Shown here piece by piece: positions 581 through 52,716 of a DNA stretch of 64,000 nucleotides. Source of the stretch: a virus; the IMG/VR virus record IMGVR_UViG_3300042898_000786, positions 1-64,000 of that record; one strand, written 5' to 3'. The stretch's first letter is position 1. Each line of letters begins with the position of its first letter. The notes below the pieces were generated by a model. The model made no database searches, was not told the DNA's origin, and saw only the letters and a program-made list of their open reading frames with translations. Both the position numbers and the translations under genes were made by a program.

Positions 581-608
581 GTACTTTTGCTTATGCTGTA
601 TAAGTTTG
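578..608 (+). promoter_or_regulatory. Bacteroidetes-type promoter of the first tail-fibre gene
   Basis: TTTG at 578-581, a 19-nt spacer, then TAAGTTTG at 601-608. This matches the -33 TTG / -7 TAnnTTTG consensus. A second TAnnTTTG (TACTTTTG) lies at 582-589. The ATG is only 7 nt past the -7 box, so the message may be nearly leaderless. Confidence 0.8.
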
Positions 609-615
609 GTAAACT

Positions 616-3600
616 ATGAAGTTTTTATCTCAAATTAATGTCAACACGGAGTACACCCTTCCGATGGTTGATGGAACAAACGGACAGGTGCTATCCACCG
701 ATGGTAATGGTGTTGCTTATTGGGGTACCATCAGTATCGGTTCACTACCCCTCGATGGGCTTTCGGATGTAATCATCACCTCTCCGTCTAGCGACCAAAT
801 GCTACGCTACGGCCTCCGGCAGGGGGATACCGTACCCGTATGGCATAACTTCACGCCGAACTTCCTAACCCCATCATCGTCCATTGATGCGCTTAATGAT
901 GTAACCATTACTAGTGCGGCCACTGGGCAGGTATTACAGTGGAGTGGTAGCGCCTGGGTTAACGCCACAGTTACAAGTGCTGGTTATGTATCTAAGGTAC
1001 AGCACGAGGTAAAGGCCGGTGTGGCGATTACAAAAGGGCAAGCGTTATATGTTACTGGGGCAGATGGCACAAATATGGTTGTAGGTAAAGCCTCAAACGT
1101 ATCTGAAGCTATGTCTTCTAAGACCATAGGTCTAGCCGCCGCTTCTGCCGCAGTAAATGGTAAGTTTTTCGTAATTACCGAGGGTCTTATTGATGGATTA
1201 AATACATCTTCCGCTAACGCAGGTGATGCTGTTTGGTTAGGCGTAGATGGAGCTTTAATCTTTGGACTCACAAACAAACCTGTAGCTCCAGCCCACTTAG
1301 TTTACCTTGGTGTCGTAACCAGAGTAAATCAGAACAACGGAGAGATTTTTGTTAGCATACAGAATGGCTTTGAGCTTAAAGAACTTCACGATGTGCTCAT
1401 CAATGGAGTTACCACCGGACAGCTAATCAGAAGAGAGGCTGATGGTCTTTGGAAGAACTGGACCCCTAACTTCCTTACTTCGCTACCTGCTCACAACCAT
1501 AACGATATATATTATACCGAGGAGGATATTGATGCGTTCTTTGGTGGAGATACTGCCATCGGTGGATACAACCAAAGTAACTGGGATGTAGCTTACAACG
1601 ATAAGATTAACAGCGCATCGTTTAGTACTACCACTGGCGTCCTTACTCTTACTCAGCAAGATACAGGCACCGTAACGGTAGACCTTGATGGTCGCTATCT
1701 TGAGTCTGAGGCTGATACCCTTCAAAGTGTAACATCAAGAGGGTCATCTACAAATACAGATATCCGTATTAAGAGACCAGCTAACAAAGTAGACAATGCT
1801 AGTTGTACAGAGTTACCTTCTAGAGTAGAATTTAACAACGCATTCGTAGCTGGTTCTACTGGTTATACTGTATTCACATACCCAACGTCATCTGTATTTA
1901 GAATATATGGAGACTATGACGGTAATGTGGGTGGGGTTCAACCAGACCTTCAGTTGGGGTTGGGGTACTTGACAGTTAAGAATAGTGGAGCTACTATAGG
2001 CAACGTCGGCATTGGTACGACGGCGCCAGCGGCTCCTCTAGATGTTAACGGTAACGTATACATAAGAGCGGCCGGTGCTTTATATACAAATACAATAGCA
2101 GGTTATTCCACTAATGTTGTTTCTATAGGAGCAAGTACAAATTTTATAGTGCCATCCGGTAATGTCGGAATAAGAACAACTACTCCTCAAAAGTTTTTAG
2201 ACGTAAATGGAAGTGGAATAGTAGCGTCTTTTGGCGGGGGTCTTAGCCCGGGTAGTTTTGCTGGTATTCACTTTGGTTATTCAGAATCATACGTTAATAA
2301 TGATAACTATAAGAAATCAGCATTAGTATTTGAAAGGACAGACAATCACGGTCAAGGCGGTAACGCTTCCGGAAAGATACACTTCCTACTTAATAATATA
2401 GGCTCAGGGTCGGCTACATCTCTGGCCCACTCCGTGATGGTAATTGATACAAACTCTACTGCCACCCAAGGGTCTGCTAGAGTCGGTATAGGAACAACTT
2501 CTCCGAACGCAACTCTTGATGTAAACGGAGCAGCCAACGCCACATCATTCTCGTCAACGGCGTTATTGATTGCAAACGCAGACACAAGCGGAAGTCTTCA
2601 ACCAGACCAAGGAGACCCAGCCAATAAGATTTACTCTTTTAGATGGCAGGGTAATGAGGTCGGATACATTGACACTGACAACAAGATAACATTCTCTGGA
2701 TTCAAGACTCCCGCTGGGACATCATCTCAGTTTTTAAAGGCCAACGGAACGGTTGATTCTAACACATACATCACCTCAACCGCCCTTAATGGATACGCCA
2801 CTGAATCTTGGGTAAACACAAACTATTACAATCGGGACCAGATTGATGACTTCTTCGGTGGGGCTGAGGCCATTAGCGGATACAATAAGTCTAACTGGGA
2901 TGCGGCCTACAACGATAAGATTAACAGCGCATCGTTTAGCACCACGACCGGTGTACTTACGCTCACTCAGCAGGACACAGGCACCGTTACTGTAGACCTC
3001 GACGGTCGATACCTTGAGTCTCTACCTGCTCACAATCACGATGACAGGTACTACACTGAAACAGAATCTGATTCTAGGTATATAAACGCATCTGGAGACA
3101 CAATGAGCGGCAGTTTATCGTTTGATGCGGCTGCTGTAATTAAAAAGAAAATTACTGGCGTTGGTGATAATCCCGTAAAGACCGCATCTGGAGTTTTAGC
3201 GTCTCGTTCTGACAATGGTGGTGGGGCTACGTATTACATTATTGAAACTACTGTACCGCAAGATGATTATCAAATGGGTGGTTTCACCATTGAATTATTT
3301 GGAAGATATGGCGAAACAAATAACAAAACAAAGATTGACCTAGGCGGGTATTGGAATCCGGAGGGGAATGGTGGCTTTGCGGGATTTGAGGCTCACGGTA
3401 CAAACCCAGAGTATAAGCCTACGATTCAAGTCGCGAGAAACAACAACTCTGGTAATACCGCATTTATTATTTCTGGTGTTTCTTGGTCATATCCTGTTAT
3501 TGTTGCAAGAGACCTTTGGTTAGGATACAATAGCACAGATGGTGGGTCATATGGCGAGGGTTGGGTTATTGCTTCTGCAAACAACCTTGATTCTTATTCA

Positions 3601-5874: not shown

Positions 5875-5875
5875 T

Positions 5876-8800
5876 ATGGCAAATCTTTTAAGTACTACAT
5901 TATCGGGGAACAACCACATAACACTTGGTCCTAATGCAACTTGGTCATCATACTTAAGAGTTGGTGGCAATGGGTATAGTGTAAGTGGAAATGAATATGC
6001 TTCTGTAGTTACCACTAATGGAAACCTTCACCTTGATGCTGGTACTTCAAGGGCAATATACTTAAACCACTATGCTGGAACATCCGGTGTGGCTTTTGGA
6101 AATGGCGCATCTGGAGTTTCTGCTTGGATGGGTGCCGATGGAGACTTATGGAAGGGTAGCGGTGATAATTCTGGAACTCAGTATGTATACAACTCCGGGA
6201 CCTGGGGAATTAGTATTACGGGTAACGCAGGTAGTTTAGACGGCTATGACTATTCTCAATTTACTGGAGTTCTAGCTAGATATATCACTACTGCTAATAA
6301 TGGTACGAGAATTAGAATAACCGCTCCATTTAACACTGACTCAGGTAAGATGTTTAGTGTTGATATTACTATGTATGCTGGATATACTCAATATAAGTAT
6401 ACCGTTAGTGCTTATATGTATAGTACTACTAATCAATGGTATAATCCAAAAGCATTATTTACTGGCGACGGAGCTCCTGACATATATGTAGGTAGAGATA
6501 ACAGCGGTAAGGCTTATATAAGTATTGCCAATGGAGCCTATACTGGAATTGTAGTAAATAATTTAGTTGGTGGATACGTAGCTTCTGAAGTAGATTCTTA
6601 TAGTCCTTGGGTCATTACACTTGATTCCGGCAACGAAAACTCCGTAGGTGTTAGCGTCATAACGACTATCACATCTAATAACATCGGCTCTCAGTCTGTA
6701 AGCTATGCAACTACTGCGGGTTCTATAACCAGCCAGGCAAACTCTGCAACAATAACGGCAACTACGTCAAATACAGCAAATGCAATAGTATTAAGGGACG
6801 GAAGTGGTGATATATATTCTAGATATTCTTTTAGTAATTATGTCAACACAACTAACAATGATGAAAGCGGAATTACTAGATTCATAATTAAAAACGGGGA
6901 CGACTACCACAGGTCAGCCACTACAACCGTTGCCGCAGATATTATTAGAGGTGTTGCATCGGGAAGTTGGGCTATTAACATTACTGGTAGTGCTGGTTCC
7001 GTAACTAATGGAGTCTATACGACTCAAAGCATAAATAATCTTACTGGTGTTTTAAATTTTGGAGTACACAACGCGACCCCATACAACGACGCAACTGGAG
7101 TCAGCAACGGAATCGCCTTTGGTGGGATAGAGTCATCTACATTAAGGACATACGGCATTTTTACTGAATTAGAAAACATTGGAGGGAATTATTCTAAGTT
7201 AACATTAAATTACCACACCGGGATTAGAATTGGAGCATCTTCCTCGTACGGAGGAACAAGGTTTTACAATAATTTTGCGGGTGGTTCAGGCGGTGGCTCT
7301 GTGATATTTTCAGTAGGTAATGGAGATAACCACGTTAGAGTATTAAATAATTTATATGTTACAGGTACTGTAACTGGAAGTAATTTAAGTGGAACTAACA
7401 CAGGCGACCAGACTAATATATCAGGCAACGCTGCGACAGCTACAAGTGCGGGTACAGTAACTGGGTCTTCTACTATAGGAGGATATCTTACATTAGCTAC
7501 TGACTGGGGTGTAAGTCCTTACACAGCAGCTTTTAATATTGTTGGTACACATCCGTCAATGGTTTTTAGAGGCAGTAATGGAGATACACATTACTTAATC
7601 CATATGGATTCTGCTGGAGATATACAATATTATTTTGGACCAGGATATACAACTAATAACTGGACTCAAAGATATACGTTTACCAAAGGTGGGGACTTTA
7701 GTGTTCGTACTGGAAATATTTCAGCATCAGGTACAATTACTGGTTCTAACTTATCAGGCACTAACACAGGAGACCAAACTAATATTAGTGGTAATGCGGC
7801 AACTGCAACATATGCAACTACTGCGGGTGCATTAACCTCAATGAACATCTCTCAGTTCACAAATAATAGTGGATATATTACGGGTACTTATGTTGTTGCC
7901 AATGGAACCAGTGCTGGTGATATTGATGCCGATTGGGGTCAATCATTTAAAACCTTTGACCCGGTACCGAGCGGTACACCACCATTAGCATCACCAAATA
8001 TTAGAACAATAAACATTGGTGAGAACTATGCAAGAAGAACACAATTAGCATTTGATTATGCATCGGATGTTGCTTATTTTAGAAGAAGAAATGACAGTGG
8101 ATGGCAAACTTGGAGAGAGTTTATTCATAGTGGTAATATTGGTTCACAAACTGTAGCAACTGCTGGAAATGCCACAACAGTTGGAGGATTAGCCGTTCAC
8201 GCTGGTAGAAACAATGAAGTAAACAAAATTGTAAGAACAGATGCCAATGGATATATTCAAGCGGGATGGATTAACACAACTTCTGGAGCATTTTCAAGTG
8301 GTATAAATAAAATATATTGTTCTGATGATGACTATATGCGTTATCAAACTCCAGCAAACTTTATATCAAACTTGGGATTAATTACTACTGGTAATATAGG
8401 TTCTCAGTCAGTATCAACAGCAACAAATTTATATGGACTTGGTACCATACAATCAACTTCAACGGGAACATCTTATCAAAATAACTATCAAGTAAGAGAA
8501 AATTCCGGAGGTAGTGGAAATACAAGTGAGATATATGCACCTCAGTTAGCATTCCATTGGGGAGGTATTGTTGCTTCTAGTATTATGATGGAGTCTAGTG
8601 GTAGGATAGCTATTAGAAATAATCCAGGAAGTAGTTATGAGAACTTTATAGCTAATATAGTATACGCTTCCTCCGATATGCGTGCTCCTATCTTCTACGA
8701 TTCTCAGGACACTACATATTATTTAGACCCCAACAGTAGTGTGTCTGGAATTTTTGCAGGTAGTGTGGGAATCAATAACACATCTCCAGTTAATGCTAAT

Positions 8801-10249
8801 TGGGGTAACGCTAGTAATACAAAACAACTGTCCATTAATGCCACTGATTACGCAGTAATAAATCTTTTGGGGGGCTCTAGAAGATTCTCTATGGGGGTCG
8901 GTGATAACATATTTTATATGTGTTATGATAATACAGCTGGTAGACACAATATTACTGTAAGTAGTAGCGGTAGTGTTAGCATACCTGTTGATGTTAGGTC
9001 TCCAATTTTCTACGACTCACAGGATACTGCATATTACGGAGACTTTGCAAGCACGTCAAGAATGAATGCTATAGTTTATGATAATTTATATTTTTCAGGA
9101 GACCAAACGTATGGTTTTATTGGTAGGAATGTTTATGCTGATACTATTAACGGCAGAGGCTCCGACCCATTAGAATTAAACTATTATGATGGTGGTTCTG
9201 TAATCATAGGCACGGGTGCTACAGGAAGTAAGGCATTATATGCTGGTTCATTATTCTCTGGTGGTAGTGCTGTAATAACCGCAGCAAACATCGGCTCTCA
9301 GTCGGTAAGTTATGCTGCATCCGCTGGTGGTGTCTCTTGGGCTAATGTATCAAGCAAGCCATCCAGATGGCTTAATACTACAACCTTAATTGATAACAAC
9401 GAACCAGACACAATAACGGAAAGCGGATTCTGGCAAAGTTATCTTGGCTCTGGGAACCCAACTGGAACTTGGTTTAACTACGTTAATGTAAGGCACTCAA
9501 ATCCTGGGAATGCACACGGATTCCAATTAGGTATGTCTTACTACGACAATAACTTGTGGTTTAGAAGTTATTCGGGTAACGTAACATATCTGTCTTGGTC
9601 TAGGGCACTAGGAACAAACACTGACCCGTATCCATCAAATATGAACCAGTATGTGAGGACCACGGATGACGTTACTCACAACTCTACCACGTCTACGCTG
9701 TTCTTAGTAAACGGACACTCAGATAACACTAAAGGATACCGTATTCACAACACTAGCGGTTCATCTGTCAGTGCAATGTTTACCAACTCATCCAACCAGC
9801 TAGTAATAGCCGCAGGTGCGGTTGACCAGATAAACCTCAATAAGAAGGTATATGTAAACGGTGTGGCACTCGGTGTTAACGTAGCGCCATCAGCAACCGC
9901 TGGACGTATTGACGCCTCCAACGACATCGTGGCATTCTCATCCTCTGACGAACGTCTTAAGGATAACATCACACCCATTGAGAACGCACTTAACAAAGTG
10001 AAGTCACTCACCGGAGTAGAGTTTGACTGGAAGCCAGAACATAAGGAAGCACACGGACACGAAGGACGTGATACGGGTATCATAGCACAGCAGGTGTTAG
10101 CCGTTATGCCATCTGCCGTTAGGACTAACGATACAGGCTACCTAGCCGTACGCTACGAGAAGCTCATCGGTCTCTTGATTGAGGGTATGAAAGAGCAGCA
10201 GACACAGATTGATGAACTTAAAACTAAGCTAGATGGCCTTACAAAGTAG
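5876..10249 (+). CDS. Second giant tail fibre with S74 chaperone domain
   Basis: 1457 residues, starting 1 nt after the previous fibre gene. The body is Gly/Ser/Thr/Asn-rich and carries internal repeats: GTNTGDQTNISGNAATAT occurs twice (near bases 7390 and 7756) and FYDSQDTxYY twice (near 8690 and 9005). Residues about 1355-1457 (SSDERLKDNITPIENAL, DTGIIAQQV, YEKLIGLLIEGMKEQ) are a classic S74 intramolecular chaperone, closer to consensus than that of the first fibre. It probably forms another trimeric fibre or spike, perhaps on the same appendage. Confidence 0.92.
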   Translation: MANLLSTTLSGNNHITLGPNATWSSYLRVGGNGYSVSGNEYASVVTTNGNLHLDAGTSRAIYLNHYAGTSGVAFGNGASGVSAWMGADGDLWKGSGDNSGTQYVYNSGTWGISITGNAGSLDGYDYSQFTGVLARYITTANNGTRIRITAPFNTDSGKMFSVDITMYAGYTQYKYTVSAYMYSTTNQWYNPKALFTGDGAPDIYVGRDNSGKAYISIANGAYTGIVVNNLVGGYVASEVDSYSPWVITLDSGNENSVGVSVITTITSNNIGSQSVSYATTAGSITSQANSATITATTSNTANAIVLRDGSGDIYSRYSFSNYVNTTNNDESGITRFIIKNGDDYHRSATTTVAADIIRGVASGSWAINITGSAGSVTNGVYTTQSINNLTGVLNFGVHNATPYNDATGVSNGIAFGGIESSTLRTYGIFTELENIGGNYSKLTLNYHTGIRIGASSSYGGTRFYNNFAGGSGGGSVIFSVGNGDNHVRVLNNLYVTGTVTGSNLSGTNTGDQTNISGNAATATSAGTVTGSSTIGGYLTLATDWGVSPYTAAFNIVGTHPSMVFRGSNGDTHYLIHMDSAGDIQYYFGPGYTTNNWTQRYTFTKGGDFSVRTGNISASGTITGSNLSGTNTGDQTNISGNAATATYATTAGALTSMNISQFTNNSGYITGTYVVANGTSAGDIDADWGQSFKTFDPVPSGTPPLASPNIRTINIGENYARRTQLAFDYASDVAYFRRRNDSGWQTWREFIHSGNIGSQTVATAGNATTVGGLAVHAGRNNEVNKIVRTDANGYIQAGWINTTSGAFSSGINKIYCSDDDYMRYQTPANFISNLGLITTGNIGSQSVSTATNLYGLGTIQSTSTGTSYQNNYQVRENSGGSGNTSEIYAPQLAFHWGGIVASSIMMESSGRIAIRNNPGSSYENFIANIVYASSDMRAPIFYDSQDTTYYLDPNSSVSGIFAGSVGINNTSPVNANWGNASNTKQLSINATDYAVINLLGGSRRFSMGVGDNIFYMCYDNTAGRHNITVSSSGSVSIPVDVRSPIFYDSQDTAYYGDFASTSRMNAIVYDNLYFSGDQTYGFIGRNVYADTINGRGSDPLELNYYDGGSVIIGTGATGSKALYAGSLFSGGSAVITAANIGSQSVSYAASAGGVSWANVSSKPSRWLNTTTLIDNNEPDTITESGFWQSYLGSGNPTGTWFNYVNVRHSNPGNAHGFQLGMSYYDNNLWFRSYSGNVTYLSWSRALGTNTDPYPSNMNQYVRTTDDVTHNSTTSTLFLVNGHSDNTKGYRIHNTSGSSVSAMFTNSSNQLVIAAGAVDQINLNKKVYVNGVALGVNVAPSATAGRIDASNDIVAFSSSDERLKDNITPIENALNKVKSLTGVEFDWKPEHKEAHGHEGRDTGIIAQQVLAVMPSAVRTNDTGYLAVRYEKLIGLLIEGMKEQQTQIDELKTKLDGLTK

Positions 10250-10628
10250 TGGTGCAATAAGCATAGATAACATCAGGACAGAATTAGGTCAAGCACAGGC
10301 AAACAGCTCGTTGCGTGCGCTATCGGCATTGGCTAATTTTTCTTCTCCTGATGCTATGAGTGAGTTCTATGGCTTCTCCGCCGCAACTGAATACCAGTTC
10401 TATCAAGGAGACGGAGGGGGTTTTGGAAATTTCGCTGAGGCCTGCTCTGATGCATCGAATCCTTTAACTCTATATTCGGCATCTACGTCATTAGCGGTAA
10501 ATGTGTATCTATACAATGATGCTGCATTAACTAGTCCTTTTGACGGAGGTGGCCTATGGTATAAATATGGAGCATCAGTATATGAAATAAGAAACGGTGG
10601 TAAGATAGATGCTGTTCGTGGTTGCTAA
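10233..10628 (+). CDS. Small tail structural protein
   Basis: 131 residues. The ATG overlaps the end of the fibre gene by 17 nt, which suggests translational coupling. The N-terminus (SGAISIDNIRTEL, SLRALSALANFSSPDAMSEFYGF) is a motif set seen at the ends of phage tail or appendage proteins. The rest is beta-rich and Gly/Tyr-rich. Role inferred from position; no enzyme motif seen. Confidence 0.7.
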   Translation: MALQSSGAISIDNIRTELGQAQANSSLRALSALANFSSPDAMSEFYGFSAATEYQFYQGDGGGFGNFAEACSDASNPLTLYSASTSLAVNVYLYNDAALTSPFDGGGLWYKYGASVYEIRNGGKIDAVRGC

Positions 10629-10636
10629 TCTTTTTG

Positions 10637-10644
10637 TATATTTG
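10637..10644 (+). promoter_or_regulatory. TAnnTTTG promoter element
   Basis: TATATTTG, 21 nt before the ATG at 10666, preceded by a T-rich stretch. Confidence 0.6.
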
Positions 10645-10665
10645 TATAACTAATTAGTAATCAAA

Positions 10666-11046
10666 ATGGCTGTAATCGCAACTGTAGATAAATTCGGGAT
10701 GACTTTCTCCGAAGCATATCATAAAATCACTCGTCTAACATACGAGTCAACCGACCAGAAAACATACATCTACGCGGCACCTGTGGCCGCTACCGTAGAT
10801 GCCGACGGTGCACCCGTGCCCACTATGCCTACGCCTCCCATGGAGACTTGGGTAAAGAAGAACTTCTGCCACATCGAGGTGGCTACCTACGCGACTGAAG
10901 AGACTCGTGAGAATCACTCTGAGCCTATCTATCGCACGCACCTTAACTTCGAAGCTATCGTTAGCGCCGAAGCCGCCGACATCATCGTTCAGGCATACGA
11001 GTACCTAAAGGCTCAGCCAGGATACGAAGATTCGGTAGACTGTTAG
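10666..11046 (+). CDS. Conserved-type phage protein of unknown function
   Basis: 126 residues, acidic, with a Pro-rich middle (PVPTMPTPPMETW). No motif recognised. It lies between tail genes and holin-like genes and has its own TAnnTTTG element, so a minor virion protein or an assembly protein is possible. Confidence 0.65.
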   Translation: MAVIATVDKFGMTFSEAYHKITRLTYESTDQKTYIYAAPVAATVDADGAPVPTMPTPPMETWVKKNFCHIEVATYATEETRENHSEPIYRTHLNFEAIVSAEAADIIVQAYEYLKAQPGYEDSVDC

Positions 11047-11080
11047 TCCTTTCTTTTCTTAATTTTAATTCTATTTTATT

Positions 11081-11356
11081 ATGGCTCAGATTTCTGAAGA
11101 CCAACTAACTAAGGCACGTGAAGTACGCGCCAAACAACAGCAAATCCAAATGGAGCTTGGGGCTCTGTACGTAAGCGAGAAAGACCTCGCCGCACGTCAG
11201 GAAGCTTTAGTCACTGAACTGCGTGCAAGCGGTGAGGAGATTCAAGTTCTTATGAAGGCGCTTTCTGAGGAGCACGGACACGGAAGCCTAAATCTTGATA
11301 CAGGTGAGTTCACCGTACAGGAGCAAGAAGCTGCACCAGCCCTCGAAAAAGAGTAA
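11081..11356 (+). CDS. Small coiled-coil protein
   Basis: 91 residues. Residues about 5-70 are a Gln/Glu/Ala-rich helix with coiled-coil character, followed by a GHGSLNLDTGEFTV segment. Small proteins with a similar GSLNxxTGEFT end occur in crAss-like phages, but the function is unknown. A terminator follows. Confidence 0.7.
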   Translation: MAQISEDQLTKAREVRAKQQQIQMELGALYVSEKDLAARQEALVTELRASGEEIQVLMKALSEEHGHGSLNLDTGEFTVQEQEAAPALEKE

Positions 11357-12115: not shown

Positions 12116-12144
12116 TTTGCGTATTGATTATACGTATAACTTTG
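12116..12144 (+). promoter_or_regulatory. Promoter of the capsid gene block
   Basis: TTTG at 12116-12119, a 17-nt spacer, then TAACTTTG at 12137-12144. This is a good match to the Bacteroidetes consensus, upstream of the scaffold gene. Confidence 0.75.
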
Positions 12145-23635: not shown

Positions 23636-26600
23636 ATGATGAATGAAGAACTAGACGGACTAGTATCTCTTGGAATTGAGCGAGGTAGGGATTTTCTCTA
23701 TATCTCGAACATATTAAAAGAAGAAGGCTATTCTGAAGCTGATATTAAATCAGCAGAACAGTTTTATAATCAAAAAAAAAAATCCCAATCGGACTCTACA
23801 TCCGCTTCGAAGCCAGCGATGGATTCTGGGGCTTCGGGATTGGGCGGTCCTCGCGTTGGAAAGTCAGGATTGGTTTCTGGCTTTTCAGAAGCATTTAAGG
23901 AAGTACAAGGTCAGCAAGTAGCTGTTCAGCAGGCTTCGGTAGTAGCCAACGAAAGAGAGGCACTAGGTGCTATTCAATTTGGCCTTACCGGTAAAGCTCC
24001 TCTTTCCTACCAACAGGAGAAACTTCTCGTTGCCGACAAAGAGAAAATTAGTTCTGAGTTTGAAGCTCAAAAGAGTCAATCTGCAAAGATATTCTTAGCT
24101 AATAAAGAAGCTGGTAACGACCCATATCAAGACCCGGAGTTTCAGGCTGCTAAGCAGAAAGAGAATGAATTTGTTGAGCGTGGAGCGAATGTAAATCGTC
24201 AGCTTCACCCAGAGTTACCTGAGGACGCGTTCGTGGCTTACAACGACCGTGGTGAGGCCAGAGAGACTCCTTTGTCTGAGACTAAGTACTTACAGTCAGC
24301 TATTAAAGTTATCCCCGGATTACAGCAAGATATAGACTTTGCTCGCATACAAGAGCGTAAGCAAGCTGAAGACGCAGTAGAAGCTGAAGAATTTCGTAAG
24401 TCTTACGAGTTTGGAAATATTCCAGTTATAAGTAAAGCTGCTAATTTAGGAATTGCCGTGGCGTCAGGACTCACGGATATGGTGGCTAATGTCGCTGCAT
24501 TTATTACAGAGCCCTTTGCTGGGACTACTGATGAGTACGAAGGTATTATACCAGAGGTAGCTCAAAGCATATACGAAAGTGCTAAGTTTACCTCTAGTGC
24601 TATGCGACAGCAGCGTGGCGTTAACCTAGAGAACTACGGACTTACAGCTTCACAGCAGGAAAAGGACCCTTTCTCCCTTTGGGCTGAAGGAGATATTGAG
24701 GGCGGAAGCAAGTCTTTAGCTGTTATGGTTGCTGACGCTGCTTTGTTTAGCCGCGCAATTGGCGCACTATATGGAGTTGGAGGCACCGCCGCAAGAACAC
24801 AAGTAGGCCAAGCAGTTTTGTCGACAGGTAAGGAAGGCGCTCAAGGTGTTGTGAATAACCTATCTCGCAACGTAGCAACTAATGTAGCTGATAGTCCTGC
24901 TATGTTTGGCGCTATGGCTACACTATCCGCTCAGCAGTCTTGGGACGCTGTTAAAGGCCGTGATGACCTTACTCTTTCTGAGAAGTTGTTTTATCAGTCT
25001 GTTGGGATTGCAGCAAATACCCTCACTGAAGCTCTTAACGTAGACGACCTACGGCTTGTAACAAAGGGACTTCCTTCTGCCCAGCGAGAAATAGCTCTTA
25101 AATCGTTCCGTGGTACTGTTAAAAGCTACTTTGATGATGTAGCTAAGGTTGGTACGCCAGAGGCATTTGAAGAGACTTTAAACTTCTACGCTGATGCTTT
25201 TGCTAAGTATGTGATTGACGGAGAGTTACCAACTATTACTGACCCGTTGTCTAGCATTGCTGTAGGCTTCCTAGCGCCATCACTTAATGTTACGGCCACC
25301 TATGCTCCTGCTATGATTGAAACAGCCCTCGCTACCACTCCGTGGAAGATGGCTAAGACCAAGGAGTTTGAACGCAATCGTAAGCTTGCTGACGAACGCG
25401 GCCGAATTGTAGAGGCTCTTGCTAATGAGAACCTACCGCAAAACGAAAAGAAAATACTTCAAAAAGCTCTTAACAATATTGAGACAGCTATTGAAGACCA
25501 AGAGCGCAAGGACTTTGAGTTCTATTCCGGTATGCAGTATGCTGATGCTAATGAGATTCTAAACATCCACGGACAGATTGGAACAAAAGTACAGCAGTAT
25601 AAAAAGACACGCTCTAAAGAGCTACGTACTGTTCTTGAGGCTGAGATTCGTGGACTTTATGGACGTAAAGTAGAAATAGAGAATAATTATGATAGTACGC
25701 AAAAATCAGGGATATCAAGTTCTGTCTTCCAAGGGCAAGCCACTGAGCAAGCCAAGCCTGAGCAAGGGGCAAGCCAAGAAACGATTGAAGCAAGTGGAGT
25801 TCTTCAAGTATCTACAGAAGAAGGCCCAGAAGTAACAGCAGAGCAGGAGACAACACGCCAAGAAGCATCTAAGGGCGCGTCAGAGGAGTTTGCTGTAGGG
25901 GCTGTTACTCCGGGTAAAGTAATTACAGAGGGATTAGCCCGTGTAATGAACAACATATTTAATGCGACTAAAGCTATTGTTCGTGGCGGCAAGGTGCAGT
26001 TCCACTATAGCCAAGAGTCTATTGCTGATGCTAACGAGGTTACTCGTTCTCAGAAGGCCAAAAACCCAAAGATTTTCTTTGACGGATTTTACGACCGCAC
26101 TAACAAAGTCTTTCACGTATATATCCCAACTGCTGCCGACAGCGCTAAGGTTGTTAAGCAAGAGGATGGTAAGTACGCTCTTGTAGACCCAAAGTTCGCA
26201 GGTCAGGTAATCAAGACATACGACGACCGCACTACAGCATTCCAAGCCAAGCAGAAGTACGACGAGAACTACATTAAGTTCGCCACTAGTAAGGCGCGTC
26301 ACGAAGCTATCCACCCAGTCATTGATGCTCTTATTCTTGAGGATAAGCCTATCCTTGATGAGAGCGGTAATCAAGTTGTAAATAACGCTGGCGAAAAGCA
26401 GTTTATCCCTAATAGCTTCCGTCAGTTCCTGTACGATAACATAGTAAGCCTGTACAGCTCTTCTCCTGACGCTCAGCGCATCTTCGATAACTTCCTGGAC
26501 CCTTACATACAAAGTGGCGCTACGAGCGCTACAATGCAGCGTGAGGCAATCACGGAGTTCTTAGCTGCTATGGCAGACGAGAAGAAGTTTAAGCAGCTCG

Positions 26601-29600
26601 ACAGAGGATTTGTGCAGAAAGTTAAAGACATCGTCAATGAGTTATTAGTTCGTGCCGGTATACGTGACATCAGCATATCAACGGATGACGATTTGTATAC
26701 TGTGGCTCGTGCGTTTAAGACCGCTATGGCCCTTGGCGTAGAGGTAAAGGTTCAGAAGGGCGGCTGGAAGAACTATACTCCAGTTGGGGAGGTATTCTCT
26801 GTGGGTATGTTAGATGGTCTTAAGGCTTCTAGTCTTACCGACAAACGTCTAAGAAGCATTATTACCGCTGGTAAGTTTGGTATGCTCACCGGGCAGAATC
26901 CCCGTGGTACCAAGTTTCCAGAGGAAGTTCGTGAGAAGTTTAACCGAGAAGCAGAAGCTTGGCTTAAATCTCGTGGGTACGAAGCCATTCCTATCCTTGG
27001 TAAGTTTGAAGGCATTGCAGAGAACAGTTTCCTAGTCCCTAACCTCACTTCTGACGATGCTCTTTTGTTTTCTCGTGAATTTAACCAAGAGGCTGTTGCA
27101 CATAACTCTGGATTCATTCACTTCGATGGTTCATTTGAGCCGCGTAGGCCAGACAACAACGTATTCGGGGTAAAGTACGAAGACAAAGACACCGACTACT
27201 TCTCAGCCTTGCGAACTAAGGATGGCAAACTAACAGCATTTAAGGTAGACTACAACTGGGATGTGCGTCTTAACTACCGCGCCTTAGAGGATGGCCTTAC
27301 TAACCAAATTGACTTCTCTATCTCTATCCCAGAAGGTCAGACATACGCTGAGTTCTTCGACTCTATCGGTGACCAGTCAATGCGAGCTCAGGCTACAATG
27401 CTTCAACTACTCGCTGAGAAGGTCGGATACAGCAAGCCTATTCTATTCTCTACAAAAGGGACTACTTCTTTTGACGCAACAAAGGATTACACCATCTTTA
27501 ACGTAGCGGAAGACCGTGAGCTTAACGAGTCTTTCGGTTACTTCGCTAACGCACTATCTACTATTATCTCTAAGGAGAATATGGGGCTTTACCGCTCGCT
27601 ACTTGATGAGACTAAGAAAAACTTCCCAGAGCTCGTAGAGTCTAAGAAGAAAGAAGTTAAAGAAAAGTTTAATAACTACGATTTTGCCCCCGACCCACAG
27701 GCTAGTGCCGAGGCAGCCAGCGGCGACAGTTTTGTCGAGCGTTTAGCCATCAAGGCTGCACTTGACGAGAAAATGGTTGAATTCTTTAAAACCAACGAAA
27801 CAGACTTCGAGGCTCTTCGCAAGAACTGGGAGACCAACAAGAAACTAATTGGTGAAGCCATCAACGTAGACATCACGGACATCGTCCCGAATATGAAGAT
27901 TGACGGCGTGATGGAAATACTTGCTAGTCCGACTCGCGATATCTATGCCGCAACTGAAGTTGCTACTCGGCTAAAAAGAACGGCTCTCGGCGGCGGCGAA
28001 TCCCTAACTGTAGATGAAGCTCGGTTGTCGATTCAGGAACTACAGAATGTTGCCGCAGTCGTTGGTCAGGATGCTGTTGTGGGACTCAATGGATTTGTAG
28101 CCAGCAAAGACTTGGTAGATGGCTTAGCTTTAATCTTAGTCGAGGTTGGTAAAACAAAAGACGGCACCTCTACTTTTAAGTTCAGTGAGAGCCCCGACTC
28201 TGCCACAAAGGGTGACGAGCTTCGTCAAAGACTAAGGAATATTGATTATGATGAGCTCTACGACTTGGCTCGTGGTTTCTGGATTGGCGCCTCGATGTCA
28301 AATCCAGAATTTGTCAGAGAATATCAGAACTCTAATTTTGACGCTGAAATAGAAAAATTAAAAAGCTTTCTTGAAGAAACAGTTAATAATCTTAAAGATG
28401 TTGCCGCGAATACCCTTAGGGGGTCCAATATAAGGAAAGCACTGGAGGTGATAGATGAATACAATAGTAGAATATTGACCGAAATAGAAAGTTCTCTCGG
28501 TAGGGCGTTTAACCCTTTTTCAAGCTATGAGATTCTATACAATTCATACAACGACATCGCCTATGACGCTAAAGATTTTTTTGAGGCGGAGTTTAACAGA
28601 CGTATAAACGACCCACGTCGTTTAATGAATATGTCAATCAGGGGCGCAATAATAGAGATTAGCGAACTAGATACGTTTACTATTGAAGATGCGAAGGCTT
28701 ACATAGCTTCAGAGCTATCAAATTCTGCGAATAATTTTGGTAAAATGAATACATCGGATGCAGTGTACGCAGATATTGATGGTTATTCAGTAGGCGGGGC
28801 AATGTATACCTTAAGTCCTGACGCAAATTATTACAGATTGCGGGATTTTATTGGAAACGATAATCTTAGCTCTGTTGTATCTGACTATGGTCCGTTTAGT
28901 TACCGCCTAGGTGACGTTATAGGAGAAGCTAATTCTGCTATATCCCGAAGAACCGCCGAAGCTTCAAAGACAACACGATACAAGTTACCAGAGGCGGATG
29001 ACTTCACCTCCGCTAGAATAGAAGTATTCATTCCTAAGCTTAACGATACATATGTGGTTACTGGTACTTACTATGATGGTGATGTTGGCGTAGCGTTTAG
29101 CTCTACAACTACAGGATATGACCTTAAAGACCCAGGGGCGGCTTTATCTGTTATGCCGGAAGTTATCAAGGCTATTAGCCGTATGTTCCCAGAGCGCGAC
29201 GTTAAATCGATTTCATTCAGCCCTATTGATGCCACCAGTAACAAACGTCAAGGTGGCGAGCTTCGTCGTGGTGTTTACCGTATGTTCGCTCAGCGCCTGT
29301 TCGGTAATTACTTCCCAGTAGGGTTAACATCAGATGATGAGAACGTCATTCCAATTCCTTACGCGTTCCGAAGCACTGAAAATACTAAGCCGGTGTACGA
29401 GGATATGGCGAACAAGCAAATCAACCGACCTAGGGACATTGACTTCGCTATCTCTAACTTTGAGAACATCCCACAAGAAGTTACTCAGGGTCTAAATGCC
29501 ATTAGCAATGCTGTTGCGTTCGCTTCACAATCATCATTCGCAAATAAGCTATTGTTCAAGGATGAGCTTCAGAATCGATTTAAGTCTTACGAGAAAGAGC

Positions 29601-32600
29601 TTAAGAAGAAGTACGGTATCAAATCGTTCAAAGTTGGGGGCAAAAAGAAGTTTGTTGATGCTGGCCTGAAGAACTACTTGGTTGACGCTTACGTATACGA
29701 GACACTCGTAGCGATACAGGCATACCCAGATGCTCTAGGATGGTACGACTACAAGACACGTGCTGCTATGGCAATTATGAGCTTGATTCACCCCGAGCTA
29801 AATACTGACCCAATGGCGGCTGTCGCATTTAAGATTGCTGTAGCTGTTACGTCGAACGGAAATAAGGTATTTGATAACTTCAAAGAAGCCGACCGTCAGT
29901 ACGAGTACTTTAAGAAGAATGGTAATTTCGATGGCGAAAAGAGCATTGGAACTCAGAGTGCTGGAATCAAGTCTACTCTTAAGCTTGTAAACAACGTACT
30001 TGACCGTATGACGATGGAGGAGTTTAACAGCTTCCTCACGTCTAAGTTTCGTGCTGGCGACTTGAAGTACGTCAGCAAAGGAAAGAGTAAAACATTACTT
30101 AGCGGATTTAACGTAAACACCGAGGTATACGGAGCCTCTATCTTCGGTCCTAAGATTGGGAACGGTTTCTTTATGAATCTTAACGGCCAGTTTGACCAGC
30201 TCACAATGGACCGATGGTTTATGCGTCAGTACGGTCGTCTTACCGGAACTCTTATTGAGCGTGATGCTAATAAGATTGCAAGCGGTAAAGTTCGTCTTAA
30301 GGGTGCGGTTACCGCTCTAAGTTCTAAAGAGAAGTCTATCCTTACTAAGGTTATACCGGGCTTCGCTAAAATGAGCGTAGACGAAAGAGCTACTGCGATT
30401 AATAAGGTTTCAATAGTAAAGGAGAAGCGTGATATGCTTTCATCAACCGATGCTTTGAATGAGCTTCGGAAGGCCGGAAACAACCTAGCTAAAAATCTGT
30501 CTGGTGAAGTCGAAGCACCGAATGGCGGAACTCAGCGTGACTTTATCATCGACGTCTTCAACGTGGCGCAGAAGGAGCTCAAGGAGAAGTACGGAATTGA
30601 TATCACGATTGCCGACCTGCAAGCTGTAAACTGGTATCCAGAGAAGGCTTTATATCAGACGTTCCAAGATGGGCGTGACGAAGAAGATGGCTCAGTGGAG
30701 ACTAGCGACAACGAACAGCCCGACTATGAAAGTGCTGCCGTTAAGTTGGCTCAAGAGCGTGGAGTAACTAATCAACAAATAGAAAATGCAAGAGCAAGAA
30801 CAAATAGTGGAGAACGTGCTGCTGAATCTAACGGACTCCGAGCTGAACTCATTGGCGGAGACAGTGTCAAAGCTAGTGCCGAAGAAATCCGTCGTAAAAT
30901 CCTCAGCGTCAAAGCTGGGCAACAAGAGCCTGTAGACTTATCTATAAGCGTTCAACCTCCTAAGTTCGAGATTGAAGGCAAGACGATTCGTGGCTTTGCT
31001 GAGCGTATGGCTGATTCTAATATTCAGTTGTACTCAGATATCATTGAGAACCCAGAGAACTATTACACACCACAGACTCTAGAAGAGATTCAGTCTCAGC
31101 TTGTGATTATGACTATTCCTGAGCTTCTAGATAAGATGACTACCGATAAGGTTACCGCCCTTAGTGGAAGCATAAAGGTTGATTTGGCTGACGAAGATAA
31201 CATATCAGTACTTTTAGGTGCTGAGCTTATTAAGAGGTATTCTGCTGAAGGAGATGACGTTAAGCTTCTGGAGATGATTGAGCGTATGTCTAAGATGGGA
31301 ACTACCGTCGGACGTATGTTACGTCACTTTGGAGAGATTAAAAATGCTACACATATTGGAATCGTACAGACTGTGGTGGCTATGGCTCAACGTGCAGGAA
31401 GGCGTCTTACCGACACTCAAATAACGAAGCTAAACACTTTAGCCCAAGAGTTATTTGCTTTGCAGGTAGAGGGTAAAGATATGATGTCAGAAGCCCTTAG
31501 GGCTCCGAGGCCTGCGCTTGACAAGGCAATCAAAGAGAAAGAGACGCAGTTGAAAATAGCTACAAAAAGGCTTGATGACTTTATCTCAACAGCAGTACCA
31601 AAGAGCGCTCAAGATATATTCGGAGGTCTAATCAAAGGAAACCTTCTTACTCCTGTTTCTCAAGTAGTTAACGTATTTGCCAACCTAGCTAATGTGTTTA
31701 CACGTCAGTTTTTAGTAAATCCTCCAGCTGTTCTTATTGATGCTGTCCGGGCTTTTGCATCCGGTAAGCCTCGAGAGATTACCCCTAGTGTAGCTGCATT
31801 TTTCTTTGGAGTAAAGCGTGCTGCCTTTGTGGGGATACCGGAAGCCGTAGAGTATATTTTTAAAGGAACACGCCCAACTGAGGAGACGTTCCAATATGAA
31901 TCTCGGCAAGGGTTTCTACCGATTCAAGCTATGATTGCGGCACTAAGCGACACTAAGGTTGCAGATGCTATCAATAAGGCTGCTGGTAAAGAGGTAATTA
32001 AATCAGACCAACTTGCCCGTCTTGAAGATGGTAGCATATCATTCTCCGATAGGTTAAAGAAGATTACTGAGGCTACATTCGGAATTGCTCCTGAAGTTAT
32101 GTTCCGACTACTTACTCTTGGTGACCGGCCATTCGCACGTTTCCAAGAAGGCATTGAGATATATCGTCGCGGTAAAAAGCTTGGCCTGCGTGGCGAAGCG
32201 CTTGACAACTTCATAAAGCATCCAGACCCTGCTACTATCAAAGCTGGTAGAGAGGCTGGTCGTGAGATTACTTATCAGGCTGACACATCATTCTCTACTA
32301 CTGTACAGAAAATACTAAATACAATAGGAAATACTAAGCTCGGTAATTTCTTGGTGACGATTATCGTACCGTACTCAAAGACTCCTTCTAACATTATCTA
32401 TGACACCCTTAACTACGTAGCTCCCCCGGTAGCTATTTTCCGGGCCGTGAAGGCCGCTAAGGACCGTCGCTTCGACCAGTTTGCCACGTTGCTAGGTAAG
32501 TCTTTTGTAGGTTTTACCCTATACGCTTTTGCTGATTTCTTAGTCAAGAACGGCTTAGCTACTGCTGGGGTTGGAGACGACGAGAAGAAAGAAAAGGAGA

Positions 32601-33583
32601 TGTTCTATAGCTTGTTCCCTTATAACAGTATCAACCTAAGTGGATTACGCAGGTATATTAACGGAGAGGGTACTGATTTACGTGATGACGACGTTTTCAT
32701 AGACTACTCTAAAGCTGGACCTATAGGTGCTATTATTGGAGCACGTGCAGCCTACTGGTCTAACAAGGATGCGAAGCCAGTAACTATTGCCAACGAGGCG
32801 GAGAACTACGGTGCTATCGCTACAATGTACTTAAGCGAGACGATAGGAACTACGATGTCTTCGTTTCAATTTATGGCTCAACAATCATTTTTGGCTAATA
32901 CAAATCAAATCCTAGAGCTGTTGACCACCAAGGGAGACATTGAGCCTGACTACATCCTTAATAGTTTGTTCAAGACAACCAGTGCTGCTATTCTTCCGAA
33001 TACCTTGACTGCTCTTAACAGGGCTACCCGCACGAAGCTTCCAGACTTGTACGACAAGAACAGCCTATATAATAGTTTGACAAACGTCATTAAAGACCGT
33101 ACATTCAATACTGATGGCATCCCGGCAAAGTTTAATATCTGGGGTGATGCTGTAGACCAAACGCCAGTAGGTGCAGACCCAGTATTCTATAACTTGTTTG
33201 ACCCGATTCGATATCAGAAGCGTCAGTACAGGCCCGAGCAACTTGAGGTGTTCCGTCTTTACGAAGACCTAGGGCAAGACACCAAGGTGATACCCACTAT
33301 ACCTCGTGAGCTTATGTCGCGCAAGTTCAAGGATACGGAGACTGAAATTGAGTATACGTTTACAAACGAAGAGGTCAACGCTATGATGGAAAAGCTCGGT
33401 AAAGAACGGTCAAAGGCTATGGCTGAGCTCATCAAAGAAGACTGGTATAAGAGCTACAATGACGAAGATAAGGCTTACGAATTGGAGTACCTTTACAAAG
33501 ATATTTCTAAGAACGGAGAATGGAAGCAAATGCTCTACAACTTTATGGAAACAGCAAAACAAGAAAACAGAATCAAAGAATGA
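23636..33583 (+). CDS. Giant polyvalent virion protein with zincin-like motif
   Basis: 3315 residues, far larger than usual phage proteins. In order: a short helical N-terminal unit (1-45); hydrophobic stretches near 265-300, 355-385 and 535-560 that may insert in membrane; a zinc-peptidase-like motif HEAIH (H889, E890, H893) with a candidate third ligand E974 in REAITEFLAAMAD; a segment near 1075-1165 (LTGQNPRG, ENSFLVPNL, FNQEAVAH) resembling DUF3293; a segment near 1990-2335 (GWYDYKTRAAM, AVTSNGNKVFDNF) known from polyvalent proteins; and a hydrophobic C-terminal region near 2660-3010 (VPYSKTPSNIIYD) resembling LPD38. Such proteins are packed in the virion and injected with the DNA to protect it or modify the host. 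No RNA-polymerase DxDxD motif was seen. The alternative ATG 3 nt downstream is equally possible. Confidence 0.85.
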   Translation: MMNEELDGLVSLGIERGRDFLYISNILKEEGYSEADIKSAEQFYNQKKKSQSDSTSASKPAMDSGASGLGGPRVGKSGLVSGFSEAFKEVQGQQVAVQQASVVANEREALGAIQFGLTGKAPLSYQQEKLLVADKEKISSEFEAQKSQSAKIFLANKEAGNDPYQDPEFQAAKQKENEFVERGANVNRQLHPELPEDAFVAYNDRGEARETPLSETKYLQSAIKVIPGLQQDIDFARIQERKQAEDAVEAEEFRKSYEFGNIPVISKAANLGIAVASGLTDMVANVAAFITEPFAGTTDEYEGIIPEVAQSIYESAKFTSSAMRQQRGVNLENYGLTASQQEKDPFSLWAEGDIEGGSKSLAVMVADAALFSRAIGALYGVGGTAARTQVGQAVLSTGKEGAQGVVNNLSRNVATNVADSPAMFGAMATLSAQQSWDAVKGRDDLTLSEKLFYQSVGIAANTLTEALNVDDLRLVTKGLPSAQREIALKSFRGTVKSYFDDVAKVGTPEAFEETLNFYADAFAKYVIDGELPTITDPLSSIAVGFLAPSLNVTATYAPAMIETALATTPWKMAKTKEFERNRKLADERGRIVEALANENLPQNEKKILQKALNNIETAIEDQERKDFEFYSGMQYADANEILNIHGQIGTKVQQYKKTRSKELRTVLEAEIRGLYGRKVEIENNYDSTQKSGISSSVFQGQATEQAKPEQGASQETIEASGVLQVSTEEGPEVTAEQETTRQEASKGASEEFAVGAVTPGKVITEGLARVMNNIFNATKAIVRGGKVQFHYSQESIADANEVTRSQKAKNPKIFFDGFYDRTNKVFHVYIPTAADSAKVVKQEDGKYALVDPKFAGQVIKTYDDRTTAFQAKQKYDENYIKFATSKARHEAIHPVIDALILEDKPILDESGNQVVNNAGEKQFIPNSFRQFLYDNIVSLYSSSPDAQRIFDNFLDPYIQSGATSATMQREAITEFLAAMADEKKFKQLDRGFVQKVKDIVNELLVRAGIRDISISTDDDLYTVARAFKTAMALGVEVKVQKGGWKNYTPVGEVFSVGMLDGLKASSLTDKRLRSIITAGKFGMLTGQNPRGTKFPEEVREKFNREAEAWLKSRGYEAIPILGKFEGIAENSFLVPNLTSDDALLFSREFNQEAVAHNSGFIHFDGSFEPRRPDNNVFGVKYEDKDTDYFSALRTKDGKLTAFKVDYNWDVRLNYRALEDGLTNQIDFSISIPEGQTYAEFFDSIGDQSMRAQATMLQLLAEKVGYSKPILFSTKGTTSFDATKDYTIFNVAEDRELNESFGYFANALSTIISKENMGLYRSLLDETKKNFPELVESKKKEVKEKFNNYDFAPDPQASAEAASGDSFVERLAIKAALDEKMVEFFKTNETDFEALRKNWETNKKLIGEAINVDITDIVPNMKIDGVMEILASPTRDIYAATEVATRLKRTALGGGESLTVDEARLSIQELQNVAAVVGQDAVVGLNGFVASKDLVDGLALILVEVGKTKDGTSTFKFSESPDSATKGDELRQRLRNIDYDELYDLARGFWIGASMSNPEFVREYQNSNFDAEIEKLKSFLEETVNNLKDVAANTLRGSNIRKALEVIDEYNSRILTEIESSLGRAFNPFSSYEILYNSYNDIAYDAKDFFEAEFNRRINDPRRLMNMSIRGAIIEISELDTFTIEDAKAYIASELSNSANNFGKMNTSDAVYADIDGYSVGGAMYTLSPDANYYRLRDFIGNDNLSSVVSDYGPFSYRLGDVIGEANSAISRRTAEASKTTRYKLPEADDFTSARIEVFIPKLNDTYVVTGTYYDGDVGVAFSSTTTGYDLKDPGAALSVMPEVIKAISRMFPERDVKSISFSPIDATSNKRQGGELRRGVYRMFAQRLFGNYFPVGLTSDDENVIPIPYAFRSTENTKPVYEDMANKQINRPRDIDFAISNFENIPQEVTQGLNAISNAVAFASQSSFANKLLFKDELQNRFKSYEKELKKKYGIKSFKVGGKKKFVDAGLKNYLVDAYVYETLVAIQAYPDALGWYDYKTRAAMAIMSLIHPELNTDPMAAVAFKIAVAVTSNGNKVFDNFKEADRQYEYFKKNGNFDGEKSIGTQSAGIKSTLKLVNNVLDRMTMEEFNSFLTSKFRAGDLKYVSKGKSKTLLSGFNVNTEVYGASIFGPKIGNGFFMNLNGQFDQLTMDRWFMRQYGRLTGTLIERDANKIASGKVRLKGAVTALSSKEKSILTKVIPGFAKMSVDERATAINKVSIVKEKRDMLSSTDALNELRKAGNNLAKNLSGEVEAPNGGTQRDFIIDVFNVAQKELKEKYGIDITIADLQAVNWYPEKALYQTFQDGRDEEDGSVETSDNEQPDYESAAVKLAQERGVTNQQIENARARTNSGERAAESNGLRAELIGGDSVKASAEEIRRKILSVKAGQQEPVDLSISVQPPKFEIEGKTIRGFAERMADSNIQLYSDIIENPENYYTPQTLEEIQSQLVIMTIPELLDKMTTDKVTALSGSIKVDLADEDNISVLLGAELIKRYSAEGDDVKLLEMIERMSKMGTTVGRMLRHFGEIKNATHIGIVQTVVAMAQRAGRRLTDTQITKLNTLAQELFALQVEGKDMMSEALRAPRPALDKAIKEKETQLKIATKRLDDFISTAVPKSAQDIFGGLIKGNLLTPVSQVVNVFANLANVFTRQFLVNPPAVLIDAVRAFASGKPREITPSVAAFFFGVKRAAFVGIPEAVEYIFKGTRPTEETFQYESRQGFLPIQAMIAALSDTKVADAINKAAGKEVIKSDQLARLEDGSISFSDRLKKITEATFGIAPEVMFRLLTLGDRPFARFQEGIEIYRRGKKLGLRGEALDNFIKHPDPATIKAGREAGREITYQADTSFSTTVQKILNTIGNTKLGNFLVTIIVPYSKTPSNIIYDTLNYVAPPVAIFRAVKAAKDRRFDQFATLLGKSFVGFTLYAFADFLVKNGLATAGVGDDEKKEKEMFYSLFPYNSINLSGLRRYINGEGTDLRDDDVFIDYSKAGPIGAIIGARAAYWSNKDAKPVTIANEAENYGAIATMYLSETIGTTMSSFQFMAQQSFLANTNQILELLTTKGDIEPDYILNSLFKTTSAAILPNTLTALNRATRTKLPDLYDKNSLYNSLTNVIKDRTFNTDGIPAKFNIWGDAVDQTPVGADPVFYNLFDPIRYQKRQYRPEQLEVFRLYEDLGQDTKVIPTIPRELMSRKFKDTETEIEYTFTNEEVNAMMEKLGKERSKAMAELIKEDWYKSYNDEDKAYELEYLYKDISKNGEWKQMLYNFMETAKQENRIKE

Positions 33584-40560: not shown

Positions 40561-40592
40561 CAAAAGTAAACTAATATATTTTAGTAATCAAA
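40561..40592 (-). promoter_or_regulatory. Bacteroidetes-type promoter of the resolvase gene
   Basis: On the minus strand TTTG (40592-40589), a 20-nt spacer, then TACTTTTG (40568-40561). It lies in the 3' end of the primase-helicase gene and 4 nt before the GTG start. Confidence 0.75.
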
Positions 40593-52017: not shown

Positions 52018-52227
52018 TTAAAGTTCTAAAACTGCTAGTGAAAGGTTGCCCTCTCGGTCAAACCATCCCTCCTTGATTAAGGCGGTGGCAGTTCGGCCAT
52101 AGTGGCCTTGAAGTTCCCAAGCCAAGCCACTACGGACTAGTTCGGCAAAGAGGCACACGACTTCTTGGTCGTTGAGTGCGCCTTGTTCGTATGCGATGAT
52201 GTTCGCGATTTGTGATGTGTTGTTCAT
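52018..52227 (-). CDS. Small conserved-type phage protein behind a ribozyme
   Basis: 69 residues. NIIAYEQGALNDQEVVCLFAELVRSGLAWELQGHYGRTA is a pattern shared by many phage unknowns. Its ATG is exactly 21 nt after the predicted cleavage site of the hammerhead element at 52243-52294. Confidence 0.72.
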   Translation of the reverse strand: MNNTSQIANIIAYEQGALNDQEVVCLFAELVRSGLAWELQGHYGRTATALIKEGWFDREGNLSLAVLEL

Positions 52228-52242
52228 ACTGATTATCTATTT

Positions 52243-52294
52243 GGTTAAGATGCCTCACGGCATTTCGGCTAATGTCAAGCCTCTTCAGTTAACC
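52243..52294 (-). ncRNA. Hammerhead ribozyme, element 1
   Basis: Read on the minus strand: stem I GGUUAA with UUAACC; core CUGAAGA (CUGANGA consensus); stem II GGCU/AGCC with a 7-nt loop; GAAA; stem III UGCC/GGCA closed by a GUGA tetraloop; cleavage triplet AUC before UUAACC. Predicted cut between 52249 and 52248. Stem I carries the TAA stop of the gene at 52289-52471. Stems are short (6, 4 and 4-5 bp) with no visible long-range loop contact, so speed in the cell is uncertain. Confidence 0.88.
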
Positions 52295-52471
52295 TTTGTT
52301 TTGCTCCACAAACTTTTCTAAAATGTCGAGAAGTTCGTCACCACATTTGTCTAACCTATCTTGAAGTTCGGGCGAAAGGTCGCTTGACTCAAGGTTGAAT
52401 TCCTCGCACACTGAGTCGAACAGCAAATCAATTTGAGAGGTAAGGATTCCGTAGATATTTTCGTTTTTCAT
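52289..52471 (-). CDS. Small acidic helical protein between two ribozymes
   Basis: 60 residues, acidic and Leu-rich, no motif. Its start is 21 nt after the predicted cut of element 2, and its last codons (GGT TAA) form the 5' strand of stem I of element 1. Confidence 0.65.
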   Translation of the reverse strand: MKNENIYGILTSQIDLLFDSVCEEFNLESSDLSPELQDRLDKCGDELLDILEKFVEQNKG

Positions 52472-52486
52472 AATTTCTATTTGTTT

Positions 52487-52537
52487 GGTTAAGACCTACC
52501 GAAGTAGGTTTCGGGCATTAGCCCTCATCAGTTAACC
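52487..52537 (-). ncRNA. Hammerhead ribozyme, element 2
   Basis: Read on the minus strand: stem I GGUUAA with UUAACC; core CUGAUGA; stem II GGGC/GCCC with loop UAAU; GAAA; stem III CCUAC/GUAGG closed by a UUCG tetraloop; cleavage triplet GUC before UUAACC. Every conserved hammerhead position is met. Predicted cut between 52493 and 52492. The TGA stop of the upstream gene (52528-52716) is part of the CUGAUGA core. Confidence 0.92.
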
Positions 52538-52716
52538 TGCCACTCAGTAAGCGTAGTCCAACCGAATGCCGTCACGATACCGCGCCTCTGAAGTTGTTCT
52601 AGAACTTTGTACTCTTTAGTGGTATCTGCACCCAAGACAGACTCTACGCTATAAAAGGGTATGTCGGTTGCGATGCCGTCAACATACTCGCGGAAAAAGA
52701 AATTGTAAGTGTTCAT
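52528..52716 (-). CDS. Small protein ending in the ribozyme core
   Basis: 62 residues, aromatic-rich N-terminus, no motif. The last codons and the TGA stop lie inside stem I and the catalytic core of hammerhead element 2, so a ribosome finishing this gene would cover and unfold the ribozyme. Confidence 0.65.
   Translation of the reverse strand: MNTYNFFFREYVDGIATDIPFYSVESVLGADTTKEYKVLEQLQRRGIVTAFGWTTLTEWQVN

Follow-up and report, generated by a model that had tools for sequence, protein, structure and literature searches.

The window analyzed here, 64,000 nucleotides long, comprises positions 1 to 64,000 of a 75,828-base IMG/VR record, IMGVR_UViG_3300042898_000786. Its terminase and virion genes have PHROG matches, and relatives of the terminase occur in a 60.9-kb Manatee Spring phage (45% at the amino acid level), in Flavobacterium elemo phages and in Cellulophaga phages; terminase relatives thus infect Flavobacterium and Cellulophaga, in line with a phage of flavobacterial type. 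A search of a phage collection for close DNA relatives of the window region found none. Window 2214-10774 is repeated at record positions 67268-75828 (8.56 kb, 99.6%), so the genome is either terminally redundant or over-assembled, and the unit length is ~65 kb; the two copies of the repeat encode unequal tail-fibre proteins (1752 vs 1613 aa). A 3315-aa virion-region protein (window 23636-33583) has no PHROGs match at E 0.001.

The subject of this report is a leftward operon of the early type, in which small genes on the minus strand are separated by two short elements, E1 and E2. A search for a Bacteroidota-type promoter upstream of this operon on its strand found none; the motif TTTG-N16..22-TANNTTTG was found six times against 1.5 expected, with sites at window 578-608, 12116-12144 and 40561-40592, some of them just upstream of genes. 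The features of the region, all on the minus strand, are as follows:

52018-52227, minus: gene 3' of E1, 69 aa, DUF7417 / phrog_3908 (family match)
52228-52248, minus: 21-nt leader between the predicted E1 cut and the ATG of gene 52018-52227 (sequence)
52243-52294, minus: E1, type I hammerhead ribozyme motif, 52 nt (read from the sequence and found by covariance model)
between 52249 and 52248, minus: predicted E1 cut, 3' of the C in AUC (from the position of H17 in the core)
52289-52291, minus: UAA stop of gene 52289-52471, inside E1 stem I (sequence)
52289-52471, minus: 60-aa gene enclosed by E2 and E1, missing in the relative L151 (comparison)
52472-52492, minus: 21-nt leader between the predicted E2 cut and the ATG of gene 52289-52471 (sequence)
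52487-52537, minus: E2, type I hammerhead ribozyme motif, 51 nt (read from the sequence and found by covariance model)
between 52493 and 52492, minus: predicted E2 cut, 3' of the C in GUC (from the position of H17)
52528-52530, minus: UGA stop of gene 52528-52716, which is the UGA of the E2 core CUGAUGA (sequence)
52528-52716, minus: 62-aa gene 5' of E2; its relatives in L151 (100% aa) and L152 (74% aa) also end in a hammerhead

E1 and E2 as hammerhead motifs

Direct reading and a script parse give the same anatomy. From 52294 down to 52243, E1 consists of GGUUAA, the core segment CUGAAGA, stem II (GGCU/AGCC, loop UGACAUU), GAA, stem III (AUGCC/GGCAU, loop GUGA), C and UUAACC; from 52537 down to 52487, E2 consists of GGUUAA, CUGAUGA, stem II (GGGC/GCCC, loop UAAU), GAA, stem III (ACCUAC/GUAGGU, loop UUCG), C and UUAACC. 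Both carry the catalytic core C3 U4 G5 A6 N7 G8 A9 ... G12 A13 A14 A15.1 ... U16.1 H17, surrounded by three helices; stem I is open-ended and loops close stems II and III. The 6-bp stem I (GGUUAA/UUAACC) is common to both elements, and stems II and III differ between them. The annotated lengths, strand and intergenic position of the pair are confirmed to the base by reading, parse, fold and covariance model, as is the pairing of stem III in both, which is one pair longer than described if A15.1-U16.1 is counted.

Folded in isolation, each element has the hammerhead arrangement as its predicted minimum free energy structure (z = -2.5 and -4.0). A structural descriptor matches twice in the window, whereas 200 random 64-kb sequences drawn from an order-2 Markov model contain no match. 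A covariance model whose training set left out the window's own elements recovers E1 with 67.5 bits (E 2e-14) and E2 with 54.9 bits (E 3e-11), and its next best match in the 75.8-kb record scores 13 bits (E 0.97). In longer context, predictions that ignore tertiary contacts and folding during transcription give a mean stem I pair probability of 0.00 for E2 with 100-nt flanks, and all three stems exceed 0.5 in just 19-38% of family members with 30-100 nt flanks. E1 and E2 are type I hammerhead motifs, for which self-cleavage is predicted.

A phage subfamily beyond the Rfam models

Are E1 and E2 an isolated pair? A pattern carrying their shared stem I matches at least 120 stretches in IMG/VR, vs six for a control pattern with a stem I of the same composition. 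With stem I left free and pairing not asked for, 128 of 134 elements among the matches listed are full hammerheads. Two fixed-length patterns, whose listings are complete, match 60 and 24 stretches; neither required pairing in stems II and III, and yet 66 of the 69 distinct sequences recovered form all six unspecified pairs (411 of 414 cells), with an A before stem I and a U at both ends of loop II in all 69. The two broader patterns would each match very roughly 500 to 1,200 IMG/VR stretches, as extrapolated from the share of the 60 and 24 stretches that appear among the matches listed for them (12/60 and 6/24). The random-window control, the stem I control and the free pairing of relatives together rule out a chance origin of E1 and E2. 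The helix changes between the two copies had been read as strong covariation; two copies alone are weak evidence, and it is the relatives' kept pairing that supplies it. By their sequence, E1 and E2 belong to a large phage subfamily of type I hammerheads.

The anatomy of this subfamily was counted in 290 elements from 187 loci. Stem I has 6 bp in 279 of them (159/165 where the search left stem I unconstrained), stem II has 4 bp in 252, and H17 is C or A. The base 5' of stem I is A in 115/119 and 158/165 elements, as is the base 3' of stem I in 115/119 elements where the search left it free. Five-nucleotide loops II have the form U-N-A-N-U, with the A in 191/213 and both U's in 213/213. The conserved element has no stem I loop or bulge, the usual docking partner of loop II. 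Because the flanking A's and the U..U loop II are conserved, an alternative contact suggests itself: it looks as if loop II docks on the purines that flank the short open stem I, a putative interaction, judged from conservation, that would replace the stem I loop. E1 and E2 conform to the family in core, stem I and flanking A's; their loops II, unlike its 5-nt UNANU, have 7 and 4 nt, respectively, and 5-nt loops stand at the corresponding places in the relatives L151 and L115. A variant with an extra U between A9 and stem II (CUGAUGAU-GGCU...) recurs in several phages at the same junction position (L012 3622-3697, L031 1228-1307, L186 219-295 and the third copy of L115).

All 50 whole records searched hold one to ten copies each, on a single strand and clustered within the record. 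One record has ten copies in 4.8 kb, and in L261 ten hammerheads occupy nearly every junction of a small-gene operon. A tandem pair, which the first-pass annotation called unusual, is therefore not rare in this family, in which many records have 2-10 copies. In L071 (G026; 6035-11139, minus), each of six hammerheads is followed by a near-identical stretch (AAAAGTSAGGYGCASACTATAACAGGC...), a repeat unit that extends beyond the ribozyme. Among bacterial genomes (~85,000 species) there are 21 pattern matches, with full-hammerhead elements in three loci, all from metagenome-assembled genomes (MAGs); a model search of low power in the bacterial family to which a Flavobacterium MAG belongs (249 genomes) found none.

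Cultured phages also carry the element. The model finds single copies in Flavobacterium phages elemoE and elemoC and in Pelagibacter phages HTVC019P, HTVC022P, HTVC131P and Jormungand. In elemoE, as in the window, the element lies in the interval from one gene's stop to the following ATG; the annotated downstream gene lies farther from the element in the Pelagibacter phages than in elemoE or the window. An opposite-strand ORF annotated over a hammerhead at L270 2467-2574 (Flavobacterium phage elemoE_6-9C; Elemovirus record MT497072) is probably spurious. In Jormungand (L272), the hammerhead lies in the same region as the anti-restriction gene ardA, which has been noted near hammerheads in other phages (Perreault et al., 2011; PMC3088659). 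Short BLAST matches had also pointed to Streptomyces phages, which were rejected because the covariance model gave nothing convincing in them.

A hit to the Rfam hammerhead models had been proposed as a check on the assignment. The Rfam 15 models (RF02275, RF03152 and others) give no match to E1 or E2 at gathering thresholds, and they find nothing in 15 loci that hold more than 35 family members; the absence of a match therefore refutes nothing, and Rfam, whose library misses the family, was set aside as arbiter. For the same reason, annotation pipelines overlook these elements. Below threshold, Hammerhead_HH9 (RF02275) scores 18.6 bits on E2 against a cut-off of 52, with the whole model aligned, core included, and unpaired positions in its outer helix. 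RAGATH-1 (RF03152), the best Rfam relative of several members, scores 17.2 bits on E1 and 22-31 bits on the members in L261, all below its cut-off of 56.3. It shares the short stem I and the hammerhead core but has an upstream hairpin, whereas the present family has no conserved base 5' of the flanking A: E1 aligns poorly there, and family positions -8 to -14 are unconserved.

Hammerheads of retrozymes, viroids and satellite RNAs have the same catalytic motif (for a review, see PMC6155905); they process replicating circular RNAs, whereas the elements described here lie between protein genes of a DNA phage. Closer are the clustered type I hammerheads around genes in prophages and phages (Perreault et al., 2011; PMC3088659). 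Their proposed role was to divide long phage transcripts into mRNAs of one operon or one gene, and cleavage was demonstrated with three tandem arrangements in vitro and with one in E. coli. These clusters have the same core, three helices, intergenic position and multiple copies around small genes, and one halovirus hammerhead lies 13 nt upstream of a start codon (PMC3088659). The E2 - 60-aa gene - E1 arrangement, in which two hammerheads flank a single gene, is a cluster of this type. The present family differs in forming a sharply delimited subfamily (A's on both sides of a 6-bp stem I, loop II of the form U..U), in its stop-in-ribozyme arrangement and narrow range of start distances, and in coming mostly from metagenomic phage contigs, where it is known as sequence. 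The catalytic class and the general cutting idea are already known, the role having been proposed in 2011 (PMC3088659). As far as the literature, mainly open-access, shows, what appears to be new is the subfamily itself, together with its strict arrangement at junctions, the fact that Rfam lacks it and its carriers in culture; an earlier description elsewhere is possible.

Anatomy and turnover of hammerhead junctions

How regular are the junctions? Context was counted for 284 elements, a few loci being read from a gapped alignment; a clean rerun hardly changed the structural counts (294 to 290). A same-strand ORF lies upstream of 270 of the 284. Its stop typically lies just 5' of the element or falls within it (stem I, core, loop II), and in 151/270 it ends within the element's first 20 nt, as a UAA in stem I, a UGA in the core or a UAA/UGA in loop II. 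Downstream, an ORF of 30 aa or more has its ATG within 80 nt of the predicted cut in 274/284 (median 24 nt, interquartile range 21-30), vs 42% at random same-strand positions and 62/284 on the antisense strand. The compactness of the operon alone could account for the position of the downstream ATG.

The genes behind the hammerheads (232 non-redundant, median 72 aa) are very diverse, and almost none has a known family: Pfam matches 7 of the 150 scanned. Such diversity is more in keeping with a generic processing element than with a switch dedicated to particular genes. The DUF7417/phrog_3908 family is matched by 3 of 150 non-redundant genes; the gene at 52018-52227 has relatives in ~159 Streptomyces phage records.

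Individual comparisons show genes coming and going at these junctions. Around the 62-aa gene, whose product is identical in both (100%), L151 hardly differs from the window, but it is without the 60-aa gene and has a single hammerhead, whose 3' half and leader equal those of E1. In L115, two of the hammerheads are arranged similarly and enclose a different gene, and in L152 the same upstream gene and a hammerhead are followed by other genes. A gene pair split by a hammerhead in L157 is split in L187, L244 and L154 by a T-rich stretch and hairpin, by its sequence another kind of junction element. If a hammerhead is present at one but not both of two related junctions, conservation of the other neighbour is infrequent (8-9%); where both have one, neighbour conservation is 0.39 vs 0.41 at ordinary junctions when anchored downstream and 0.25 vs 0.42 when anchored upstream. 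In this systematic comparison, the idea that hammerhead junctions are hot spots of gene turnover finds no support beyond single cases.

Possible roles in the early message

E1 and E2 probably act as scissors at gene junctions, cutting a polycistronic early mRNA into single-gene messages at the predicted sites. The sequence contributes the motif, the family, the co-orientation, the stop/start anatomy and one clean cassette gain or loss; hammerhead chemistry would predict the cleavage, the chemistry of the ends and the effect on expression. In this model, the leftward early operon would be transcribed as a single RNA, and each hammerhead would fold during synthesis and cut itself 3' of the C in AUC or GUC. 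The upstream message would then end in the folded ribozyme, terminated by a 2',3'-cyclic phosphate; as the cut falls 3' of the stop codon, the upstream gene would retain that codon. The downstream gene would become a message of its own, with a 5'-OH leader made of UUAACC and an A-rich start region (21 nt in the window) directly before its ATG. Element, leader and gene would form a unit open to gain or loss, which would allow the operon to add genes that lack their own promoter or terminator. That the pair cuts the early message in the cell was the proposal of the first-pass annotation, and it gains support from a large family whose junctions are built alike. Against it stand the frequent loss of stem I in folds predicted with flanks, the 6-bp stem I that offers loop II no loop or bulge for docking, the atypical loops II of E1 and E2, and operon compactness as a sufficient reason for the position of the downstream ATG.

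Might cutting depend on translation? A ribosome terminating at the upstream stop could melt the ribozyme, and cutting would then vary with how closely ribosomes trail the polymerase. The stops that end inside the element, including those in E1 (UAA in stem I) and E2 (UGA in the core), are as this switch would have it, and stops in all three frames precede the cut in 158/290 elements vs 20% of shuffled sequences. However, many stops lie just 5' of the element, which means that the ribosome need not overlap it; overlap is in any case favored in compact phage genomes, and the invariant core itself supplies the UGA. As the main explanation, such gating is unlikely. If true, it would mean that cutting reports whether upstream translation has caught up with the polymerase and that a phage operon regulates itself junction by junction through RNA scissors.

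It is still less probable that the ribozymes serve to make circular or shuffled mRNAs by religation of the gene between two hammerheads, with the 5'-OH UUAACC pairing with the 3' GGUUAA-ribozyme-C>p and the ends being rejoined by the ribozyme or by host RtcB. The identity of stem I in E1 and E2 while stems II and III differ invites this reading, as do L070 (five copies) and L077 (four copies), which keep one stem I as stems II and III vary, and identical stems I are ~10 times commoner within a record than between records. Stems II and III show the same pattern, however (alike in 34% vs 7% and 32% vs 5% of comparisons within vs between records), which duplication explains; special within-phage conservation of stem I was therefore rejected as evidence for ligation. 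Records L071, L076, L118 and L238 mix stem I sequences, and spliced or circular products were sought in other phage clusters and none were found (PMC3088659). Circularization and translation gating are each no more than plausible additions to mRNA cutting.

Least probable of all are footprints of recombination or homing that mark the borders of gene cassettes, with cleavage activity incidental or lost: the gain or loss of the 60-aa gene precisely at its hammerhead borders (window vs L151) and the low conservation of the other neighbour where one junction has a hammerhead fit them, but neighbour conservation at hammerhead junctions is near the ordinary value when anchored downstream and somewhat lower when anchored upstream, and selection for DNA recombination would not maintain the core and the compensated helices that essentially all members keep.

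A 2017 review counts the role of prokaryotic hammerheads among the open questions (PMC6155905). With message cutting as the favored reading, the present family makes the question precise and testable, since it offers a ribozyme that takes up the space from stop to start, up to ten in a row. The hammerheads also flag accessory phage genes, nearly all of them outside known families.
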